Source: Methylohalomonas lacus
GTDB lineage: Bacteria > Pseudomonadota > Gammaproteobacteria > Methylohalomonadales > Methylohalomonadaceae
Direction of reading: 5' to 3'
DNA length: 64,000 nucleotides
Assembly: GCF_024808875.1 (NCBI RefSeq)
Contig: NZ_JANUCT010000004.1
Location: forward strand, 62,001 to 126,000
The translations under genes were made by a program, and so were the position numbers. Positions 3,408-42,996 of this stretch are shown here, piece by piece. The notes under the pieces were generated by a model. That model did no database searches and was not told where the DNA came from. It saw nothing but the letters and a program-made list of their open reading frames with translations. The first letter of the stretch is position 1. Every line of letters starts with the position of its first letter.

Positions 3408-6394
<2,987 letters not shown>

Positions 6395-6455
6395 GTTACT
6401 AGTGAATAGTGACGGGATTGTTCCTTGACACTGAAACGGTGTCGGTCACGCTATT

Positions 6456-8465
6456 TTAATCCCCCATCTCCCGTACCACGCGGAAACCGATGTTGTCATA
6501 ACCCTGGCTGGCGTCGAACTTGTCGCGGCGTGAATGGCGCAGTGAGGTTGGCGGACTGTTGTACGAGCCGCCACGGACACCGCGTAACCGGCAACTGCCG
6601 TTGGCCTGGCGCGGCTGATGTGCCGTGCCATTGGCGTTTTCGTAATCCGGGTGCCAGCAGTCGGCAGTCCACTCGGCGACATTGCCGAGCATGTCATGTA
6701 CGCCGTAGGGATTGGCCGGAAAGTTGCCGATGGCGGTGGGCATGCGCGGCTGCAGTTCCTCGTCGCAACCGAAACAGTAGGCGCGGCCCGGCTCCATGGT
6801 CACGCCCCACCAGTAATCCGTCTCCTGGCCACCGGCAGCAGCGTATTCCCATTCCGCCTCAGTGGGCAGGCGATAGTCATGTCCGGTCTGGCGCGACAGC
6901 CAGTCGGCGTAACCGGCGGCATCAGCCCAGCTGACGTTGATCACCGGATGATCGCTGCGGCTCTGGCCGAACGACTCCGGCATGGCCTTGCCGGTGGCGC
7001 GCGCATAACGTTCGTACTCGGCGATCGTGATCTCGTACTGGCTGATGGCAAAGCGTTGTACCGTGACCGTATGTTCCGGGCGCTCCTCGCGAAAGCGACT
7101 GCTGCCCATCTGGAACTGGCCGGCCGGTAGCGGGCGCATCAGCGGCCCCTGTCCGCCGCCGGCCAATGGATCACGGAAGGCCGGTTTCGGCAGGGGGGCG
7201 CTGACCGGTTCGGTTTCCGTCGTCGATGCGGTTGCCGGCGCCGTTTCTGCTTCCTCAGCCGGAGCCGATTCGGGCTCACTGGCGGGCCTGTCTTCGGCGG
7301 GTGCCGGGGCGGCGTCGCGCGCCGTTTCCGATGCTGTCTGTTCCGCCGTTATACGCGGCTCGCTGCCGGGTTCATCGCCGGGTATACGCGCCAGCCAGTA
7401 ATAGCCGAACACGGCGATCAGAATCACGCCACCGGCAATCACGGCAATGGCAGCGGCAAAGCGTTTGCGTCCATCGGCGGTCGTTTCATCGACGTTGGCG
7501 GACAGGTCGATGTCGGAACCACGCGGTGCGATTTCATCCTCACCGGCTGTTATATCCAGCATCGGCACCGGATCGGCGGCGTCACTGATCGTGCTACCGG
7601 CGGCGGCATTGGGGACGGTCTGATCGGTCAGGTCGACCTCACCGGCGTCGTTGATTGCAAGACCGGCCGAGGCAGTGCTGTCTGGGGGAAAGGCAACGTC
7701 GGCGTCCAGGGACAGGGCATCGATTACGAGCACGGTGGTATTGTCCTGCCGTGGCATGGCCTCGTCTTCGATCGCCTGCAGCAGGGTCTGCACGCAGGCT
7801 TTGGGTTTGTCCGACCACTCGGAGAACTGGATGATCTTGCCGCCGCCCAGCGTGTCGAGACCATCGCTGCTGAGAATGATGCGATCGTCATGCTGCAGCT
7901 CCAGCGGCGCTTCCGGGCAATCGATCTCGGTGATCTCTTCACCGGTGACCGCGCTCATGAGCATGTTGCGCGACAGCCCCGGTTCCGGCTCCATGGGCTG
8001 GCCGGCGGCTGCCAGCCGATCAAGGAAGCCGCCGTAGCTGTGATCGGCGTTTTTCTTGCTCAGCTGCTTATCGCGCAGCAGGTACAGGTGGCTGTCGCCG
8101 ACACTGGCCCACCAAAGGTGATTCTGCTCAAGCAGCACGGCGACCATGGTACAGCCCATACCCTGCAGGGCGGGGGTTTCGCGGATGGTTTCGGCGATCG
8201 AGCCGTTCGCCTTGAGGATGCCGCCCTGAAGCAGGCCGGTTACATCGTCGCTGGGGTAATTGGCGCTGACGTACTTGTTGAACGCCTGCACGGCCATGTT
8301 GCTGGCGACATTGCCGGCGGCGTGACCGCCCATGCCGTCGGCGACAATCGCCAGAACGCTGGGCTGACCTTCGGCATCGGTCAAGTGTGTTACCAGGAAA
8401 GCATCTTCCTGATAATCGCGGGCACCGTCTATCTGGTTGCCTGCGATCTCATACTGCAACCCCAT
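6456..8465 (-). CDS. PP2C-type Ser/Thr phosphatase - membrane helix - FGE/SUMF1-fold fusion
   Basis: A 669-residue single-pass protein. Residues 1-250 are a PP2C phosphatase with all metal-site motifs: YQEDAF (19-23), ADGMGGHAAG (42-51), SVGDSHLYLL (121-130), SSDGL (199-203) and RQDNTTV (239-245), so it should be a metal-dependent Ser/Thr phosphatase in the cytoplasm. A disordered acidic stretch leads to one membrane helix (about 335-358), a Pro/Glu/Ala-rich linker (360-430) and an FGE-sulfatase (SUMF1, C-type-lectin-like) domain (441-665) with YRLPTEAEWEYAAAG, GNVAEWTAD and GGSYN...IGFRVV. The catalytic cysteines of true formylglycine-generating enzymes are absent after GGSY, so the outer domain is more likely a binding or sensing module. 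No partner kinase is in the window. It is transcribed divergently from hrpA with a good Shine-Dalgarno (AGGGGAAA). Confidence 0.85.
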   Translation of the reverse strand: MGLQYEIAGNQIDGARDYQEDAFLVTHLTDAEGQPSVLAIVADGMGGHAAGNVASNMAVQAFNKYVSANYPSDDVTGLLQGGILKANGSIAETIRETPALQGMGCTMVAVLLEQNHLWWASVGDSHLYLLRDKQLSKKNADHSYGGFLDRLAAAGQPMEPEPGLSRNMLMSAVTGEEITEIDCPEAPLELQHDDRIILSSDGLDTLGGGKIIQFSEWSDKPKACVQTLLQAIEDEAMPRQDNTTVLVIDALSLDADVAFPPDSTASAGLAINDAGEVDLTDQTVPNAAAGSTISDAADPVPMLDITAGEDEIAPRGSDIDLSANVDETTADGRKRFAAAIAVIAGGVILIAVFGYYWLARIPGDEPGSEPRITAEQTASETARDAAPAPAEDRPASEPESAPAEEAETAPATASTTETEPVSAPLPKPAFRDPLAGGGQGPLMRPLPAGQFQMGSSRFREERPEHTVTVQRFAISQYEITIAEYERYARATGKAMPESFGQSRSDHPVINVSWADAAGYADWLSRQTGHDYRLPTEAEWEYAAAGGQETDYWWGVTMEPGRAYCFGCDEELQPRMPTAIGNFPANPYGVHDMLGNVAEWTADCWHPDYENANGTAHQPRQANGSCRLRGVRGGSYNSPPTSLRHSRRDKFDASQGYDNIGFRVVREMGD

Positions 8466-8581
8466 TATGGCTTTCCCCTACCGATGTTGGCGCTATCTTG
8501 CTGTCTTGCCTGTTATTATTCAGGGCGATTCAATAATGTATCCTACCAGCCCCTTGTCAGTTTACAAAAACAAACATGAAT

Positions 8582-8597
8582 TGCATGCAAGCATGCA
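8582..8597. promoter_or_regulatory. Perfect inverted repeat in the divergent hrpA promoter region
   Basis: TGCATGC-AA-GCATGCA, a 7-2-7 perfect inverted repeat, lies 24 bp before the hrpA start in the 156-bp gap shared with the divergent PP2C-FGE gene. The short spacing and symmetry suggest a protein-binding operator rather than a terminator, as no T run follows. No known regulator was matched to it. Confidence 0.35.
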
Positions 8598-8621
8598 TTT
8601 TACGAGCATTATTTTTCTGTC

Positions 8622-11600
8622 ATGAGCAGCCCTGATACAGCCCAGCCGGAAACCGCGGCACTGAACGAGTGCACGGTACGCGATCGTCGGCGTCTTTCGC
8701 GCCGCCGGCAGCAGGACGCCGAGCAGTGGCGTACCGAGCTGGCCGCTGCCCGCAGCCGTTACCAGGCACGCCGCGAGCACGTGCCGACGGTCGATTTTCC
8801 CGCTGATCTGCCGATCACCGCTGCCAGCGATGACATCATCGCCGCGATCCGCGATCATCAGGTGACCATCGTCTGTGGTGAGACCGGTTCCGGCAAGACC
8901 ACCCAGCTGCCGAAGCTGTGCCTGGCGGCCGGCCGTGGGGTCGCCGGGTTTATCGGACATACCCAGCCGCGACGACTGGCGGCCCGTACTCTGGCAGCGC
9001 GTGTCGCCAGCGAGCTGGGCAGCGAGATTGGTGCGGCAGTCGGCTACAAGATCCGCCACCAGGACAGCACCAACAGCGACAGCTACATCAAGCTGATGAC
9101 CGACGGCATCCTGCTTGCGGAACTGCGTTCGGATCGCGATCTGCTCGACTACGATACGCTGATCATCGACGAGGCCCACGAGCGCAGTCTCAACATCGAT
9201 TTCATCCTCGGCTATCTCCGGCAACTGCTGAAGCGACGGCCGGACCTGAAGGTGATCATCACCTCGGCAACCATCGATGTGGAACGCTTTTCCGAGCATT
9301 TCGATAATGCACCGATCATCGAGGTCTCCGGGCGCAGCTACCCGGTCGAGGTGCGTTACCGGCCGTATGAGGATGATGACGATGACCTGGCGTTCGAACA
9401 CGCCGTGCTGAATGCCGTGCGCGAACTGTCCGGTCGTGATCGCGGCGATATCCTGGTGTTTCTCGAGGGTGAACGCGAGATTCACGAGCTGGCCAGGTTT
9501 TTGCGCAAGCAGGATCTGCCGGACACCGACGTGTTGCCGCTGTACGCACGCCTGGGCGCGGCCGGACAGGGGCAGATATTCCAGCCGCACCAGCGCCGGC
9601 ATATCGTGCTGGCGACCAATATCGCCGAAACGTCGCTGACCATCCCCGGCATTCGTTATGTCATCGACAGCGGCTACGCCCGCATCAGCCGTTACAGTCC
9701 GCGTAGCAAGGTGCAGCGCCTGCCGATCGAGAAAATCGCCAAGGCCCCGGCCAACCAGCGCAAGGGTCGCTGCGGCCGCGAAAGCGATGGCATCTGCATT
9801 CGCCTCTACAGCGAGGCGGATTTCGAGGCTCGCCCCGACTTCACTGAACCGGAGATCCGCCGTACAAATCTTGCTTCCGTGGTCCTGCAGATGAAAACGC
9901 TGGGGCTCGGCGAGGTGGAAAAGTTTCCGTTCCTGGAACCGCCGGACCAGCGCCAGATCAACGACGCGGTCAACCTGCTCGTCGAACTCGGTGCGATTGA
10001 CAGTAACGGCAGCAAGAAAGCGATCAGTGGCGGTAAGCTGACGCCGATCGGCCGACAGCTGGCGAAACTGCCGCTCGACCCGAGCTTCGGGCGCATGCTG
10101 CTGGCCGCCGGCGACATGCAGTGCCTGAACGAGGCGCTGATTATTGTCAGCGGTTTGAGCATCCAGGATCCGCGCGAGCGACCGCTGGAAACGCAGCAAA
10201 AAGCCGATCAGTCGCATCAGCAGTTTCGCGACGAACGTTCCGACTTCCTCGAATTTCTCAAGCTGTGGGATTTCTTCGAGCGCCTGTCCGCGAAGCTGTC
10301 GAAGAACCAGTTCCGCCACGCCTGCCGCGAGAATTTTCTCGCCTATGTGCGCGTGCGCGAATGGCGCGATATCCATCGCCAGTTGAGTCAGCAGATGCGC
10401 GAGCTGGGCTATAAGCGCAATAGTGAGGCGGCCGGCTACGAGAGCCTGCATACGGCCCTGGCGACCGGTTTGCTTGGCCATGTGGCGCAGAAGACCGGTC
10501 CCGGCGAATACACCGGCGCTCGTAACATCAAGCTGAAAATATTTCCCGGCTCGTCGCAGTTTGCCAAACAGCCGAAGTGGTTCATGGCCGCCGAACTGGT
10601 GGAGACCTCGCAGTTGTTTGCCCGCACCGTCGCCGCCATTGATCCGGAATGGTTGCTGAAACCGGCCGCGCACCTGCTGCGCACGGAAACCTTCGAGCCG
10701 CAATGGAATGCCGAGGCGCAGCGCATCAACGCGCGCCAGCGGGTGACGCTGTACGGCCTGCCGCTGGTGACCGCGCGGCCGGTCGATTATGCGCGCATCG
10801 ATCCGGATGAGGCGCGCAAGCTGTTCATCCAGCACGCCCTGGTAGAAGGCGAGTTGCGCAGCCGTGCCGGTTTCTACCAGCACAATCGCAAATTAATCGA
10901 ACAAATCAGGCGCGAGGAACAGAAGATCCGGCGTCCCGATGTGCTCGATGAACAGCGCCTGTTCGCGTTCTACGATGACCGTTTGCCGGCGACGGTGACC
11001 GATGGTGCGTCGCTGGAGAAATGGCGCCGCCGGGCGGAACAGAACGATCCGCATAGCCTGTACGCCGAGCGCGATCAGCTGATCCGCAAGGAGACCGCCA
11101 CGGCCGCGGATTACCCGGATGAACTGCACGTCAACGGCATCGTGCTGCCGGTCGACTACGCTTTCAGACCCGGTGCCGAGGACGACGGTGTCACCATCGA
11201 TGTGCCGCTGCAGTTGCTGAACCAGTTCGACAGTGAGGCGTTTGAACGACTGGTGCCGGGTCTGCTGGAAGAGAAGATCACCGCCTTGCTGAAGTCATTG
11301 CCGAAAAGCCTGCGCCGCCGTTTCGTGCCGATTCCGGACACGGCCCGGCGCTGCCTGGCCGATGTGCGCGAAAGCAGCGCACCGCTGCCGGAGGCGCTGG
11401 CCGCCTGCCTGCTGCGCCAGACCGGTGTCGAGATTCCGGCCGATGCCTGGCAGGCGGCGGAACTGCCGGCGCATCTGACGCCGCGCTTTCGTCTGATCGA
11501 TGACAACGGCAGTACGCTGGCAAGCGAACGCGACTACCAGGTACTGCGCGAGCAATTCGGCGGCGAGGCGGCACGCAGTTTTGCCGGCCGCCTCGATACC

Positions 11601-12479
11601 GGCGTCGAGCGCGAGGACCTGACCGACTGGAATTTCGGCGAGTTGCCCGAGGTGGTGGAACTGGAGCAGGGCGGCTACCGGATGCGTGCCTACCCGGCAC
11701 TGGTCGACTGCGCCGATCGCGTTGCGATTCGCTGTTTCGATACTGCCGCGAAAGCCGCGTCACACATGCAGGCAGGCTTATTGCGACTGTTCTGTCTGGC
11801 GCTCGATAAGGAGATCAAATACCTGCGCCGCAATCTGCCCGACCATAAAAAGCTTTGTCTGGCTTACAGTGCCCTGGGCAATTGCGAGGAGCTGACGCAG
11901 CGCGTGGTTGAACAGGCGGTCATTCACGCCTGCCAGCTGGATCATGCGCAGCCGCGCACGCAGGCAGACTTTGAACAGCAACTGGAAACGGGGCGCAAGC
12001 AACTCGTCAGCGAGGCCAACAGCCTGTGCGCACTGCTGAGCGAGATTCTGCAGCGACATACGAAGCTGCGTAGTCACCTGTCCGGCAATGTATCGCCGCA
12101 ATGGCTGGCCGCGATCAAGGACATTCGCGAACAGCTCGATCACCTGGTGTTTGCCGGTTTCATCAATGCCGTACCCGTTTCGGCGCTCGAACACTACCCG
12201 CGTTATCTCGACGCCATCGACAAGCGCCTGCAACAGCTGGAACAGAACCCGGCACGGGATCGCGAGCGGGCCGCACTCGTTGCACCCTGGTGGCAGGATT
12301 ACCTGAAACTTGCCAGCGCCCATACGGGACAGGACAATGGCCCGGAACAGCTGCACCAGTATCGCTGGCTGATCGAGGAATACCGGGTATCGGTATTCGC
12401 CCAGGAACTGAAAACCGCCCAGCCGGTGTCGCCGCAACGCCTGCAGGCCGCGCGCGATGAACTGCGCCGTGCGCGCTAA
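8622..12479 (+). CDS. hrpA: ATP-dependent RNA helicase HrpA
   Basis: DEAH-box RNA helicase; in E. coli HrpA acts in mRNA processing and rescue of stalled ribosomes. At 1,285 residues it matches the long HrpA family (E. coli 1,300). Visible motifs: Walker A GETGSGKTTQLPK (about 86), motif Ia QPRRLAARTLAARVA, DEAH box IIDEAHERSLNIDF (about 183), motif III TSATID, motif V TNIAETSLTIPGI and motif VI QRKGRCGR. The winged-helix/ratchet region, an OB fold and the C-terminal DUF3418 region (ending near RWLIEEYRVSVFAQELKTA) follow. The ATG lies 25 bp after a palindrome. The next gene starts 33 bp downstream. Confidence 0.96.
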   Translation: MSSPDTAQPETAALNECTVRDRRRLSRRRQQDAEQWRTELAAARSRYQARREHVPTVDFPADLPITAASDDIIAAIRDHQVTIVCGETGSGKTTQLPKLCLAAGRGVAGFIGHTQPRRLAARTLAARVASELGSEIGAAVGYKIRHQDSTNSDSYIKLMTDGILLAELRSDRDLLDYDTLIIDEAHERSLNIDFILGYLRQLLKRRPDLKVIITSATIDVERFSEHFDNAPIIEVSGRSYPVEVRYRPYEDDDDDLAFEHAVLNAVRELSGRDRGDILVFLEGEREIHELARFLRKQDLPDTDVLPLYARLGAAGQGQIFQPHQRRHIVLATNIAETSLTIPGIRYVIDSGYARISRYSPRSKVQRLPIEKIAKAPANQRKGRCGRESDGICIRLYSEADFEARPDFTEPEIRRTNLASVVLQMKTLGLGEVEKFPFLEPPDQRQINDAVNLLVELGAIDSNGSKKAISGGKLTPIGRQLAKLPLDPSFGRMLLAAGDMQCLNEALIIVSGLSIQDPRERPLETQQKADQSHQQFRDERSDFLEFLKLWDFFERLSAKLSKNQFRHACRENFLAYVRVREWRDIHRQLSQQMRELGYKRNSEAAGYESLHTALATGLLGHVAQKTGPGEYTGARNIKLKIFPGSSQFAKQPKWFMAAELVETSQLFARTVAAIDPEWLLKPAAHLLRTETFEPQWNAEAQRINARQRVTLYGLPLVTARPVDYARIDPDEARKLFIQHALVEGELRSRAGFYQHNRKLIEQIRREEQKIRRPDVLDEQRLFAFYDDRLPATVTDGASLEKWRRRAEQNDPHSLYAERDQLIRKETATAADYPDELHVNGIVLPVDYAFRPGAEDDGVTIDVPLQLLNQFDSEAFERLVPGLLEEKITALLKSLPKSLRRRFVPIPDTARRCLADVRESSAPLPEALAACLLRQTGVEIPADAWQAAELPAHLTPRFRLIDDNGSTLASERDYQVLREQFGGEAARSFAGRLDTGVEREDLTDWNFGELPEVVELEQGGYRMRAYPALVDCADRVAIRCFDTAAKAASHMQAGLLRLFCLALDKEIKYLRRNLPDHKKLCLAYSALGNCEELTQRVVEQAVIHACQLDHAQPRTQADFEQQLETGRKQLVSEANSLCALLSEILQRHTKLRSHLSGNVSPQWLAAIKDIREQLDHLVFAGFINAVPVSALEHYPRYLDAIDKRLQQLEQNPARDRERAALVAPWWQDYLKLASAHTGQDNGPEQLHQYRWLIEEYRVSVFAQELKTAQPVSPQRLQAARDELRRAR

Positions 12480-40061: not shown

Positions 40062-41042
40062 ATGAGCCGGGCGTGCGCACCAGTCGACACCGACGCGGCC
40101 ACCTGGCAGCCGCTGGCCAGTCCCGAGCGCCTGCGCCAGCGGGCGGCGTTGCTGACAACGATCCGCCGCTTCATGGACGCGCGCGGCATTCTCGAGGTCG
40201 AGACACCGTTGCTGTCGCGGGCGGCGGTGACCGACCCGGCGCTGCAGTCGTTCGCGGTCGCTGTCGATGGCACGCCGTATTACCTGCAGACCTCGCCGGA
40301 GTTTGCGATGAAGCGGTTGCTGGCGGCCGGCAGCGGCCCGATTTACCAGGTCGCGAAGGTGTTCCGCGATAACGAGCGCGGTCGCTGGCACCACCCGGAG
40401 TTCACCATGCTGGAATGGTATCGGCCGGGTTTCAGCGTTGCCGATATGCTTGACGAAATCGACGCCCTGCTGCTGGCACTGGAGCTGCCGCGCAGCGAGC
40501 GGCTGGATTACGGCGCGCTGTTTCAGCAGGCCACCGGTTGTGATCCGCACTGCGCCGATCAGCAGACGCTGCAGCGGCGGGCACTGGATTTCGGTCTGGT
40601 GTCGCGCGATCTGTCGCGGGTCGAGCTGCTGGATTTCCTGTTCAGCAGTGCGGTCATGCCGGAACTGAAGGACAGGCCCTGTGCCATCGTCAGCGATTTT
40701 CCGCTGGCCCAGGCAGCGCTGGCGCGCATTCGCCGCGGCGCTGACGGCAAGCCGGACGTTGCCGAGCGTTTTGAACTGTTCATTCACGGCGTCGAGATCG
40801 GCAACGGCTTCCACGAACTGGCCGACGCCGCCGAACAGCGGCAACGCTTTCAGGCCGACCAGGCCGAACGCGGCCGCCGCGGCCTGGCGCAGCGGCCGCT
40901 GGACGAAAACCTTCTGGCGGCGCTGACGGCCGGACTGCCGGACTGCTGCGGCATTGCCATCGGCCTCGATCGACTGCTCATGCAGGTCAGCGGCGCCGGG
41001 CGTATCGATGACGTCCTCGCCTTCCCGGTCGAGCGCAGCTGA
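40062..41042 (+). CDS. epmA: EF-P--(R)-beta-lysine ligase EpmA
   Basis: Truncated class II lysyl-tRNA synthetase homologue that attaches beta-lysine to Lys34 of EF-P. The 326-residue product has the catalytic core only, without an anticodon-binding domain: motif 1 (RRFMDARGILEVETPLLSRAAVTDP), motif 2 (QVAKVFRDNERGRWHHPEFTMLEWY) and motif 3 (CCGIAIGLDRLLMQVSGAGRIDDVLAFP). It follows efp by 6 bp. The yoaA helicase gene starts 10 bp after its stop. Confidence 0.97.
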   Translation: MSRACAPVDTDAATWQPLASPERLRQRAALLTTIRRFMDARGILEVETPLLSRAAVTDPALQSFAVAVDGTPYYLQTSPEFAMKRLLAAGSGPIYQVAKVFRDNERGRWHHPEFTMLEWYRPGFSVADMLDEIDALLLALELPRSERLDYGALFQQATGCDPHCADQQTLQRRALDFGLVSRDLSRVELLDFLFSSAVMPELKDRPCAIVSDFPLAQAALARIRRGADGKPDVAERFELFIHGVEIGNGFHELADAAEQRQRFQADQAERGRRGLAQRPLDENLLAALTAGLPDCCGIAIGLDRLLMQVSGAGRIDDVLAFPVERS

Positions 41043-41052
41043 ACGCCCGGTC

Positions 41053-42996
41053 ATGCTGAGCGCGGCCGAGATCCTGGCACAAGACGGTCCCGTCGCCCGC
41101 CTGATCGACGGTTTTCATGCCCGTGCCGACCAGCAGTCCATGGCGACGGCGGTCGAAGCCGCGCTGGCCGCTGGCGAACCATTGCTGTGTGAGGCCGGCA
41201 CCGGTACCGGCAAGACCTTTGCTTACCTGGTGCCGGCGCTGCAGTCCGGCCAGCGCGTGGTCATATCGACCGGTACCAAGCACCTGCAGGACCAGCTCTT
41301 TCAGAAAGACCTGCCGCTGATCCGCAAGGCGCTTGGCCAGCCGATCGAGGTGGCGCTGCTGAAGGGGCGTGGCAATTACCTGTGTCGCTATCGTTTCCAG
41401 CAGACGCTGGAGTCCGGCAACGGCCCGCGGGCGCGCCTGCAGGCCTTGAACGAATGGGCACGGAGGACCACGGACGGCGACCTGTCGGAATTTGCCGAGC
41501 TGGCCGATAACGACGCGCTGCGCGCCAGCGTGACTTCCACGACCGACAATTGCCTCGGCCAGGACTGCCCGGAGTTCGAGCAGTGCTTCGTGCTCAAGGC
41601 ACGGCGCCGGGCGGTGCAGTCGGAAGTCGTGGTCGTCAATCATCACCTGCTGCTGGCCGACATGACCCTGCGCGAAACCGGCTTCGCCGAACTGTTGCCG
41701 GCCGTGGATGCCATTATTTTCGACGAGGCGCACCAGCTGCCGGCGCTGGCTGCCGAGTTTTTCAGCGAGGGCCTGAACAGTCGCCAGCTGCTGGGGCTGG
41801 CGCGCGACTGTCGCCAGGCGCAGGCGACCGAGGCCAGCGACACGCGCGATCTTCTAACCCTGGCCGCGGATCTGGAATTCGCCGTGCAGCACCTGCGGCT
41901 GGCCTTTGGTAACCGCGACCTGCGCGCGCCCTGGGATGACTGGGCACGGCGCGACAGCGTCGAGGCGGCGCTCGACGAACTCGACCAGGCGTTGGCCGAT
42001 CTCGATCAGGCCCTGGCGCTGGTGGCCGAACGCGGTCGTCTGCTGACTTTCGCGCGGCGCCGTTGTGCCTTGCAGATCCAGCGCCTGCACGCGTTTCGCG
42101 CGGACACTTCCGAACACTGGGTGCGCTGGGTCGAGGCGCAGGGTCAGCAGCTGCAGCTGCATCGTACGCCGATCGACGTCTCCGGCGCGTTCCAGTCGCG
42201 GCTGCAAGCCTACGGCTGTACATCGATATATACTTCGGCGACGCTGACGGTCGCCGGTGACTTCAGTCACTTCGCCGGCCAGCTCGGCCTGCAGGAAGCG
42301 AGCCAGCAGACCTGGGCCGGACCGTTCGACTACGCGCAGCAGGCGTTGCTGTATCTGCCGCCGGGCCTGCCGAACCCCATGGAAGCCGGCTATACGCAGA
42401 AACTGGTTGCCGCGATGCGGCCGGTGCTGGAAGCCGGCGGTGGCAGCGCGTTTCTGCTGTTTACCAGCCATCGGGCGTTGCAGGAGGCGGCCCGCGCGCT
42501 GCACGAGGCCATCGACTACCCGTTGCTGGTCCAGGGCGAGGCGCCGCGTACCGAGCTGCTGCGCCGGTTTCGCGAACACGGCAACGCCGTGCTGCTCGGC
42601 ACCAGCAGTTTCTGGGAAGGTGTTGATGTGCGTGGCGAGGCTTTGACCTGCGTGGTCATCGACAAACTGCCATTTCCGCCGCCGGACGATCCGGTCTACG
42701 CGGCGCGGGCCGCGCGCATGAAAGAGCAGGGTATCGAACCGTTCATGAACTACGCGCTGCCGCAGGCCATATTGAGCCTCAAGCAGGGCATCGGTCGACT
42801 CATCCGCGACATCAACGATTACGGTGTGCTGGTGCTGTGCGATCCGCGTATTCGCAGCAAGGGCTACGGCAAGCGTGTACTGAAATCACTGCCGCCGCTG
42901 CCACAAACCGCGGACATAGCCGATGTGCAGCGCTTTTTCCAGGACCGGCGTGAGCAGGCGGGCAACCGCGACGACGCCTTACTGACGCGCCAGTAA
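41053..42996 (+). CDS. yoaA: DinG-family ATP-dependent DNA helicase YoaA
   Basis: Fe-S superfamily 2 helicase of the XPD/DinG type; YoaA in E. coli works with HolC (chi) in repair of damaged forks. The 647-residue product has Walker A in CEAGTGTGKTFAYLVP (about 50), an Fe-S cluster set of four Cys (YLCRYRF, then CLGQDCPEFEQC about 168-180), DEAH motif IIFDEAHQLPALA (about 223) and C-terminal motifs LLFTSHRALQEAA, GTSSFWEGVDVRG and QGIGRLIRD. I took the ATG at 41053, 10 bp past epmA; the open frame extends into epmA. It ends 18 bp inside the convergent glutaredoxin gene. Confidence 0.95.
   Translation: MLSAAEILAQDGPVARLIDGFHARADQQSMATAVEAALAAGEPLLCEAGTGTGKTFAYLVPALQSGQRVVISTGTKHLQDQLFQKDLPLIRKALGQPIEVALLKGRGNYLCRYRFQQTLESGNGPRARLQALNEWARRTTDGDLSEFAELADNDALRASVTSTTDNCLGQDCPEFEQCFVLKARRRAVQSEVVVVNHHLLLADMTLRETGFAELLPAVDAIIFDEAHQLPALAAEFFSEGLNSRQLLGLARDCRQAQATEASDTRDLLTLAADLEFAVQHLRLAFGNRDLRAPWDDWARRDSVEAALDELDQALADLDQALALVAERGRLLTFARRRCALQIQRLHAFRADTSEHWVRWVEAQGQQLQLHRTPIDVSGAFQSRLQAYGCTSIYTSATLTVAGDFSHFAGQLGLQEASQQTWAGPFDYAQQALLYLPPGLPNPMEAGYTQKLVAAMRPVLEAGGGSAFLLFTSHRALQEAARALHEAIDYPLLVQGEAPRTELLRRFREHGNAVLLGTSSFWEGVDVRGEALTCVVIDKLPFPPPDDPVYAARAARMKEQGIEPFMNYALPQAILSLKQGIGRLIRDINDYGVLVLCDPRIRSKGYGKRVLKSLPPLPQTADIADVQRFFQDRREQAGNRDDALLTRQ

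Follow-up and report, generated by a model that had tools for sequence, protein, structure and literature searches.

Outer sensor domains are a familiar feature of bacterial Ser/Thr kinases. To our knowledge, phosphatases equipped with an outer sensor are far less common than such kinases, with PstP as the standard example. PstP of M. tuberculosis consists of a cytoplasmic PP2C domain, a juxtamembrane linker, one membrane helix and an extracytoplasmic domain (PMC3052367), and two disulfides have been reported on its extracellular side (PMC3052367, PMC12421883). The FGE fold has also been met in phospho-signalling, as Ser/Thr kinases with C-terminal FGE (NirV/DUF323) domains, for example those of the Chlamydia Pkn1 type, are known (PMC1262709), and FGE-type C-type-lectin folds act as ligand-binding scaffolds in diversity-generating proteins (PMC6328139). 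No description of a PP2C-FGE fusion was found in a search of papers available without subscription, and FGE is not mentioned in a 2025 survey of bacterial PP2Cs (PMC12088040).

Here, a 64,000-nucleotide stretch (the window) of the 2.76-Mb, 99% complete genome of the gammaproteobacterium Methylohalomonas lacus (G000) was analysed. An initial annotation had described one of its genes as a one-piece fusion of a cytoplasmic PP2C phosphatase, a membrane helix and a periplasmic FGE-fold domain, and this layout was recovered by Pfam, hydropathy and AlphaFold. The features of the locus are as follows.

6456..8465, (-) strand: gene for the 669-aa PP2C-membrane helix-FGE protein (ORF, Pfam, hydropathy, AlphaFold)
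7716..8465, (-) strand: PP2C phosphatase domain, residues 1-250 (Pfam, residue invariance, Foldseek)
7467..7703, (-) strand: first linker, residues 255-333, predicted to be disordered (alignment, composition, AlphaFold)
7392..7466, (-) strand: single membrane helix, residues 334-358 (hydropathy, helix in the model)
7182..7391, (-) strand: second linker, a Pro/Ala/Glu-rich tether, residues 359-428 (composition, AlphaFold)
6459..7181, (-) strand: FGE/PvdO-fold domain without the FGE catalytic cysteines, residues 429-669 (Pfam, PDB search, Foldseek, alignment)
6765..6776, (-) strand: C564 and C567, which form an invariant CxxC in the FGE domain (alignment)
6657..6659, (-) strand: C603, invariant, aligned with a cysteine of PvdO (5hha) (PDB search, alignment)
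6591..6593, (-) strand: C625, invariant, aligned with a cysteine of PvdO (5hha) (PDB search, alignment)
8466..8621, no strand: 156-bp intergenic region to the divergent hrpA (window ORFs, loci of relatives)

The ORF begins with ATG, and the starts of its homologues align with the same codon. Residues 7-249 match the Pfam families PP2C_2 (2.2e-10), SpoIIE (2.3e-7) and PP2C (2e-6), and residues 444-665 match FGE-sulfatase (1.7e-54). Hydropathy analysis showed only one hydrophobic segment, peaking at residues 336-354 and present in all aligned rows, and no N-terminal hydrophobic signal. The AlphaFold model, built on 32 sequences, has a mean pLDDT of 74.7. Both the PP2C and the FGE domain are predicted with confidence, the bulk of each lying above 80-90; residues 334-358 form a helix, and the linkers at 263-338 and 358-422 have pLDDT below 50 and are predicted to be disordered. 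The tether that follows the helix, which had been described as Pro/Glu/Ala-rich, is 86% P/A/E/D/S/T/V. In Foldseek searches against the PDB, the PP2C side hit tPphA (2j86, 7.6e-18), PstP (1txo, 2.2e-17) and PppA (6jkv, 5.0e-14), and the FGE side hit PvdO (5hha, 5.8e-18) and FGE (2q17, 2.7e-14).

Like PstP, the window protein has a PP2C domain, one helix and a folded extracytoplasmic domain, and because PstP shares these elements the layout is not unprecedented in principle. The two differ in the outer part, which in PstP is another domain of about 191 residues and here has the FGE/PvdO fold. The soluble, free-standing phosphatases Stp1, PrpC and tPphA share the catalytic residues and the PP2C fold, but the window family forms a separate PP2C clade, and the NCBIfam Stp1/IreP equivalog (NF033484) was matched at 2e-40 with 138.8 bits, short of its cut-off of 230. 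On the FGE side, the PvdO equivalog (NF051459) scored 131 against a cut-off of 500 bits, and the GldK and EgtB cut-offs were likewise missed. The protein is neither an FGE nor a Stp1 equivalog. It is a variant of an established type, the membrane PP2C with an outer domain: an apparently intact PP2C, predicted to be anchored in the inner membrane of a gammaproteobacterium, carries an FGE-fold domain predicted to lie outside.

Genome scans yielded 31 distinct full-length relatives, all of which keep the PP2C-helix-FGE order and the single helix. These fill 33 rows, including two duplicate contig records, and together with the window protein give an alignment of 34 rows (32 distinct). R16, E20, D21, D43, G44, G46, D124, D201, D241 and N242 are identical in 34/34 rows, and the metal- and phosphate-binding motifs of the PP2C/PPM family (Arg, E/D, DG, GD, DG, DN) are complete, with Pfam matches over the cut-off, in agreement with the initial annotation. 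The FGE domain is also rich in invariant residues, among them C564, C567, C603 and C625 (34/34 rows), which are the only four cysteines of the domain in every row. The two catalytic, copper-binding C-terminal cysteines of SUMF1, whose fold the domain shares by Pfam and Foldseek, are absent, as had been stated for the window protein; no row has a cysteine after the RGG motif (residue 631). A role in sulfatase maturation was rejected because these cysteines are missing; the genome contains only one weak sulfatase-type match. A diversified C-type-lectin target of a diversity-generating retroelement was also rejected, as no direct repeat of at least 30 bases occurs at 3500-12000.

The proposed topology, with PP2C in the cytoplasm and FGE in the periplasm, is supported by several features. 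A signal peptide that would place the phosphatase outside was looked for and not found, and the architecture, with its single helix, is kept in all of the relatives. Summed over the family, 76 Lys and Arg residues flank the helix on its N side and 48 on its C side; the N side is richer in 22/34 rows, equal in 7/34 and poorer in 5/34, which suggests a modest positive-inside bias. Moreover, the four invariant cysteines follow the family pattern of the outer domain only, and their even number is the pattern expected from two periplasmic disulfides. They probably form two disulfides, although they could bind metal instead.

The same cysteines bear on the possibility that the FGE domain is a periplasmic PvdO-type enzyme, an oxidase that lacks the FGE cysteines and simply shares its membrane anchor with the phosphatase. 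Among solved structures, PvdO comes closest by both sequence (3.1e-30) and fold, and C603 and C625 align with its cysteines; PvdO itself, unlike the window domain, is a free-standing enzyme of the periplasm. Several points speak against such an enzyme here: the equivalog cut-off is far off, the conserved neighbourhoods contain no siderophore genes, and signalling modules of unrelated kinds carry the same FGE subfamily. We regard a PvdO-type enzyme as very unlikely.

How the outer domain might act on the phosphatase depends largely on the linkers, which vary in the relatives from 35 to 94 aa (first) and from 63 to 92 aa (second) and are weakly conserved. Of the original proposal, in which an external ligand could control dephosphorylation inside, the membrane layout is supported, the receptor role is putative, and the long disordered linkers on both sides of the helix make rigid gating by a ligand less likely than recruitment or clustering. 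A ligand-gated phosphatase, in which ligand binding to FGE alters PP2C activity through the helix, for example by dimerisation, would fit the receptor-like layout, and other PP2Cs such as SpoIIE reportedly have a regulatory switch. Linkers of such length, low conservation and low pLDDT are nevertheless unsuited to rigid signal transfer, and no juxtamembrane signalling helix was seen, making direct gating unlikely. At the other extreme, the FGE domain could be a passive anchor that keeps the phosphatase at an envelope site without sensing, a reading compatible with the disordered tethers and with the lower conservation of FGE than of PP2C in the relatives (about 50% versus 60-70% identity). A mere anchor, however, needs no such fold with so many invariant residues, and this reading also appears highly improbable.

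We therefore somewhat favour a PstP-like inner-membrane Ser/Thr phosphatase with a periplasmic FGE-fold domain that binds a ligand or partner and exerts control by location or clustering. In this model, the N-terminal PP2C, predicted to be active from its sequence, would dephosphorylate membrane-located phosphoproteins from the cytoplasmic side. Its most plausible targets are receptor-like Ser/Thr kinases, together with the substrates of these kinases, whose genes lie in other parts of the genome. The C-terminal domain, probably held by two disulfides, is not a formylglycine-generating enzyme; its most likely role is to bind a ligand or partner in the periplasm. Given the long, variable linkers, predicted to be disordered, on both sides of the helix, such binding would probably set the location or clustering of the phosphatase rather than pull on its active site.

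In an evenly drawn sample of 369 gammaproteobacterial genomes, 37, including the window genome, encode an ORF of 608-734 aa that matches the PP2C part. In the window and in about 15 relatives, the gene and hrpA are arranged divergently, and the neighbours in the relatives are what we take, from reading their sequences rather than from database matches, to be hrpA, a CPA2-type transporter, an AmpG-like permease, a CYTH protein and molybdopterin genes. At about 15 loci (L035:9961-10260 and equivalents), the phosphatase gene is convergent with a gene for a small CxxC protein, SelW/Rdx-like as judged from its sequence. Plasmid records match in the FGE part only, and a split homologue (L056) was rejected as a two-gene version since it looks like a frameshift in the linker. 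The gene thus looks chromosomal, sparsely distributed and mostly vertically inherited, and the family is apparently both sparse and undescribed. PADLOC returned no match, and a defence system was rejected.

The 64-kb window holds no kinase, FHA or T6SS gene, the genome-wide matches sitting elsewhere, which agrees with the earlier statement that neither a kinase nor a T6SS gene is beside the phosphatase gene; PstP differs in that its gene sits with kinase genes. The proposed check of whether homologues sit next to Ser/Thr kinase, FHA or T6SS genes had a negative outcome: the relatives' genes lie among housekeeping genes, and their context points to no partner. A T6SS regulator of the PpkA/PppA kind is accordingly largely refuted for the window genome and retains next to no probability. 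Its basis lies in four other gammaproteobacterial families, where a PP2C gene adjoins a large kinase gene that includes an FGE-like part (L136:7873-12896, L149:4136-9470, L150:7973-13237 and L151:4598-8965), at L151 also next to TssM- and TagF-like genes. However, these free PP2Cs fall outside the PP2C clade of the window family, the window genome has no match to the TssC/VipB sheath gene, and the conserved neighbourhoods lack T6SS genes. Kinase-FGE proteins (Pkn1-type; L137, L136) resemble the window protein in joining a cytoplasmic phospho-signalling domain to an FGE fold, but a kinase replaces the phosphatase, and the FGE parts are only about 30-35% identical and belong to other branches. 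One genome (G008) encodes both a kinase-helix-FGE protein and a PP2C-membrane-FGE phosphatase.

The targets were expected to lie elsewhere, and the genome indeed has ten kinase matches over the cut-off, none of them nearby, together with three PP2Cs, four FHA domains and five class III cyclase matches. Of the three PP2Cs, only the window phosphatase has an outer domain. A CHASE2-kinase, a free PP2C and an FHA protein are clustered at G000:C6 5717-9846 (L138), and at G000:C2 about 177300-179100 (L139) a PP2C adjoins a protein that matches both FHA and class III cyclase. Besides the window gene, the genome has a single FGE-type gene (L002:1258-3182, G000:C5), which is EgtB-like (ergothioneine type) and overlaps a glutamine-amidotransferase-like (EgtC-like) ORF. 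Two kinases, on contigs C16 (631 aa) and C23 (708 aa), combine a membrane helix with an outer region in which Pfam recognises no domain. At E<1e-97, their subfamily occurs in 20/37 genomes carrying the phosphatase versus 2/332 others, whereas a control search with the CHASE2-kinase gave 26/37 versus 72/332; of the 22 best-scoring genomes in each search, 20 and 13 were carriers, respectively (P about 0.03). Since the control kinase is enriched too, the co-occurrence partly reflects kinship, and the C16/C23 subfamily is a suggestive lead to a partner kinase, not a result.

The FGE subfamily is shared with other signalling proteins. At about 45-50% identity, it ends proteins of 1322-1825 aa with cNMP-binding domains, a rhodanese, a long central region that reads as a coiled coil, and one membrane helix (L131:3951-8348, L132:5299-10569, L133:5749-11226, L134:3913-8253 and L178:7090-11058), for which no name or function was found. 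In a quick FGE tree with long branches, the family's FGE parts group with those of these proteins (SH-aLRT 93). Unlike the window protein, they have no PP2C, except for two that carry both.

L173, 5779-10989, (+) strand, G087:C231: one-chain fusion
L174, 3056-8629, (-) strand, G210:C59: one-chain fusion

L173 (1736 aa) consists of two cNMP-binding stretches (1.9e-30), a rhodanese (1.4e-13), PP2C (PP2C_2, 4.6e-15; 50% identical to the window PP2C), a coiled coil, a helix at 1426 and FGE (3.3e-46). L174, from the same family as L173, has the same modules, but its FGE part lies in a second frame. In a PP2C-domain tree, likewise quick and long-branched, the phosphatase family together with L173 and L174 is set apart from the ordinary free PP2Cs of the same genomes (SH-aLRT 100); L017, a free PP2C on a long branch, falls on the side of the family. 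In a Pseudomonadales MAG, three consecutive FGE-domain genes (1140, 378 and 904 aa) are found at L067:5334-14647, two with other N-terminal modules.

By the fusion argument, the presence of cNMP-rhodanese, PP2C and FGE in one chain places them in one pathway. A cNMP-rhodanese gene is present in 37/37 carriers versus 131/332 other genomes (Fisher 2e-14, kinship ignored), and among the genomes listed 0/26 have a long cNMP protein together with PP2C-FGE (naive P about 0.002, kinship ignored), suggesting that the two may be mutually exclusive. In the window genome, a free 354-aa cNMP-rhodanese protein is encoded at G000:C19 about 40553-41617 (L179:7554-8618) beside an aroE-like gene, a position that recurs in other genomes, and two longer ones are encoded on C6; all three have a cysteine at the rhodanese active-site loop. 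The C19 protein is a candidate partner of the phosphatase. As the same FGE subfamily is joined through one helix to other cytoplasmic signalling modules, FGE can be seen as an exchangeable outer domain. It is conceivable, though doubtful, that a periplasmic FGE receptor subfamily serves phosphatases, kinases and cNMP-rhodanese coiled-coil proteins alike, as a gammaproteobacterial set for envelope signalling, with the window protein and the C19 protein working together as a split form of the L173 chain. If so, one phosphatase would bring together a periplasmic ligand and a cyclic-nucleotide or sulfur signal from the cytoplasm.

In summary, the fused relative L173 provides a concrete hypothesis for the partner of the phosphatase, and a family that is conserved and has a fold recognisable as ligand-binding would make outside-regulated dephosphorylation directly testable. 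Through this family, protein dephosphorylation inside the cell may come under the control of the cell envelope.
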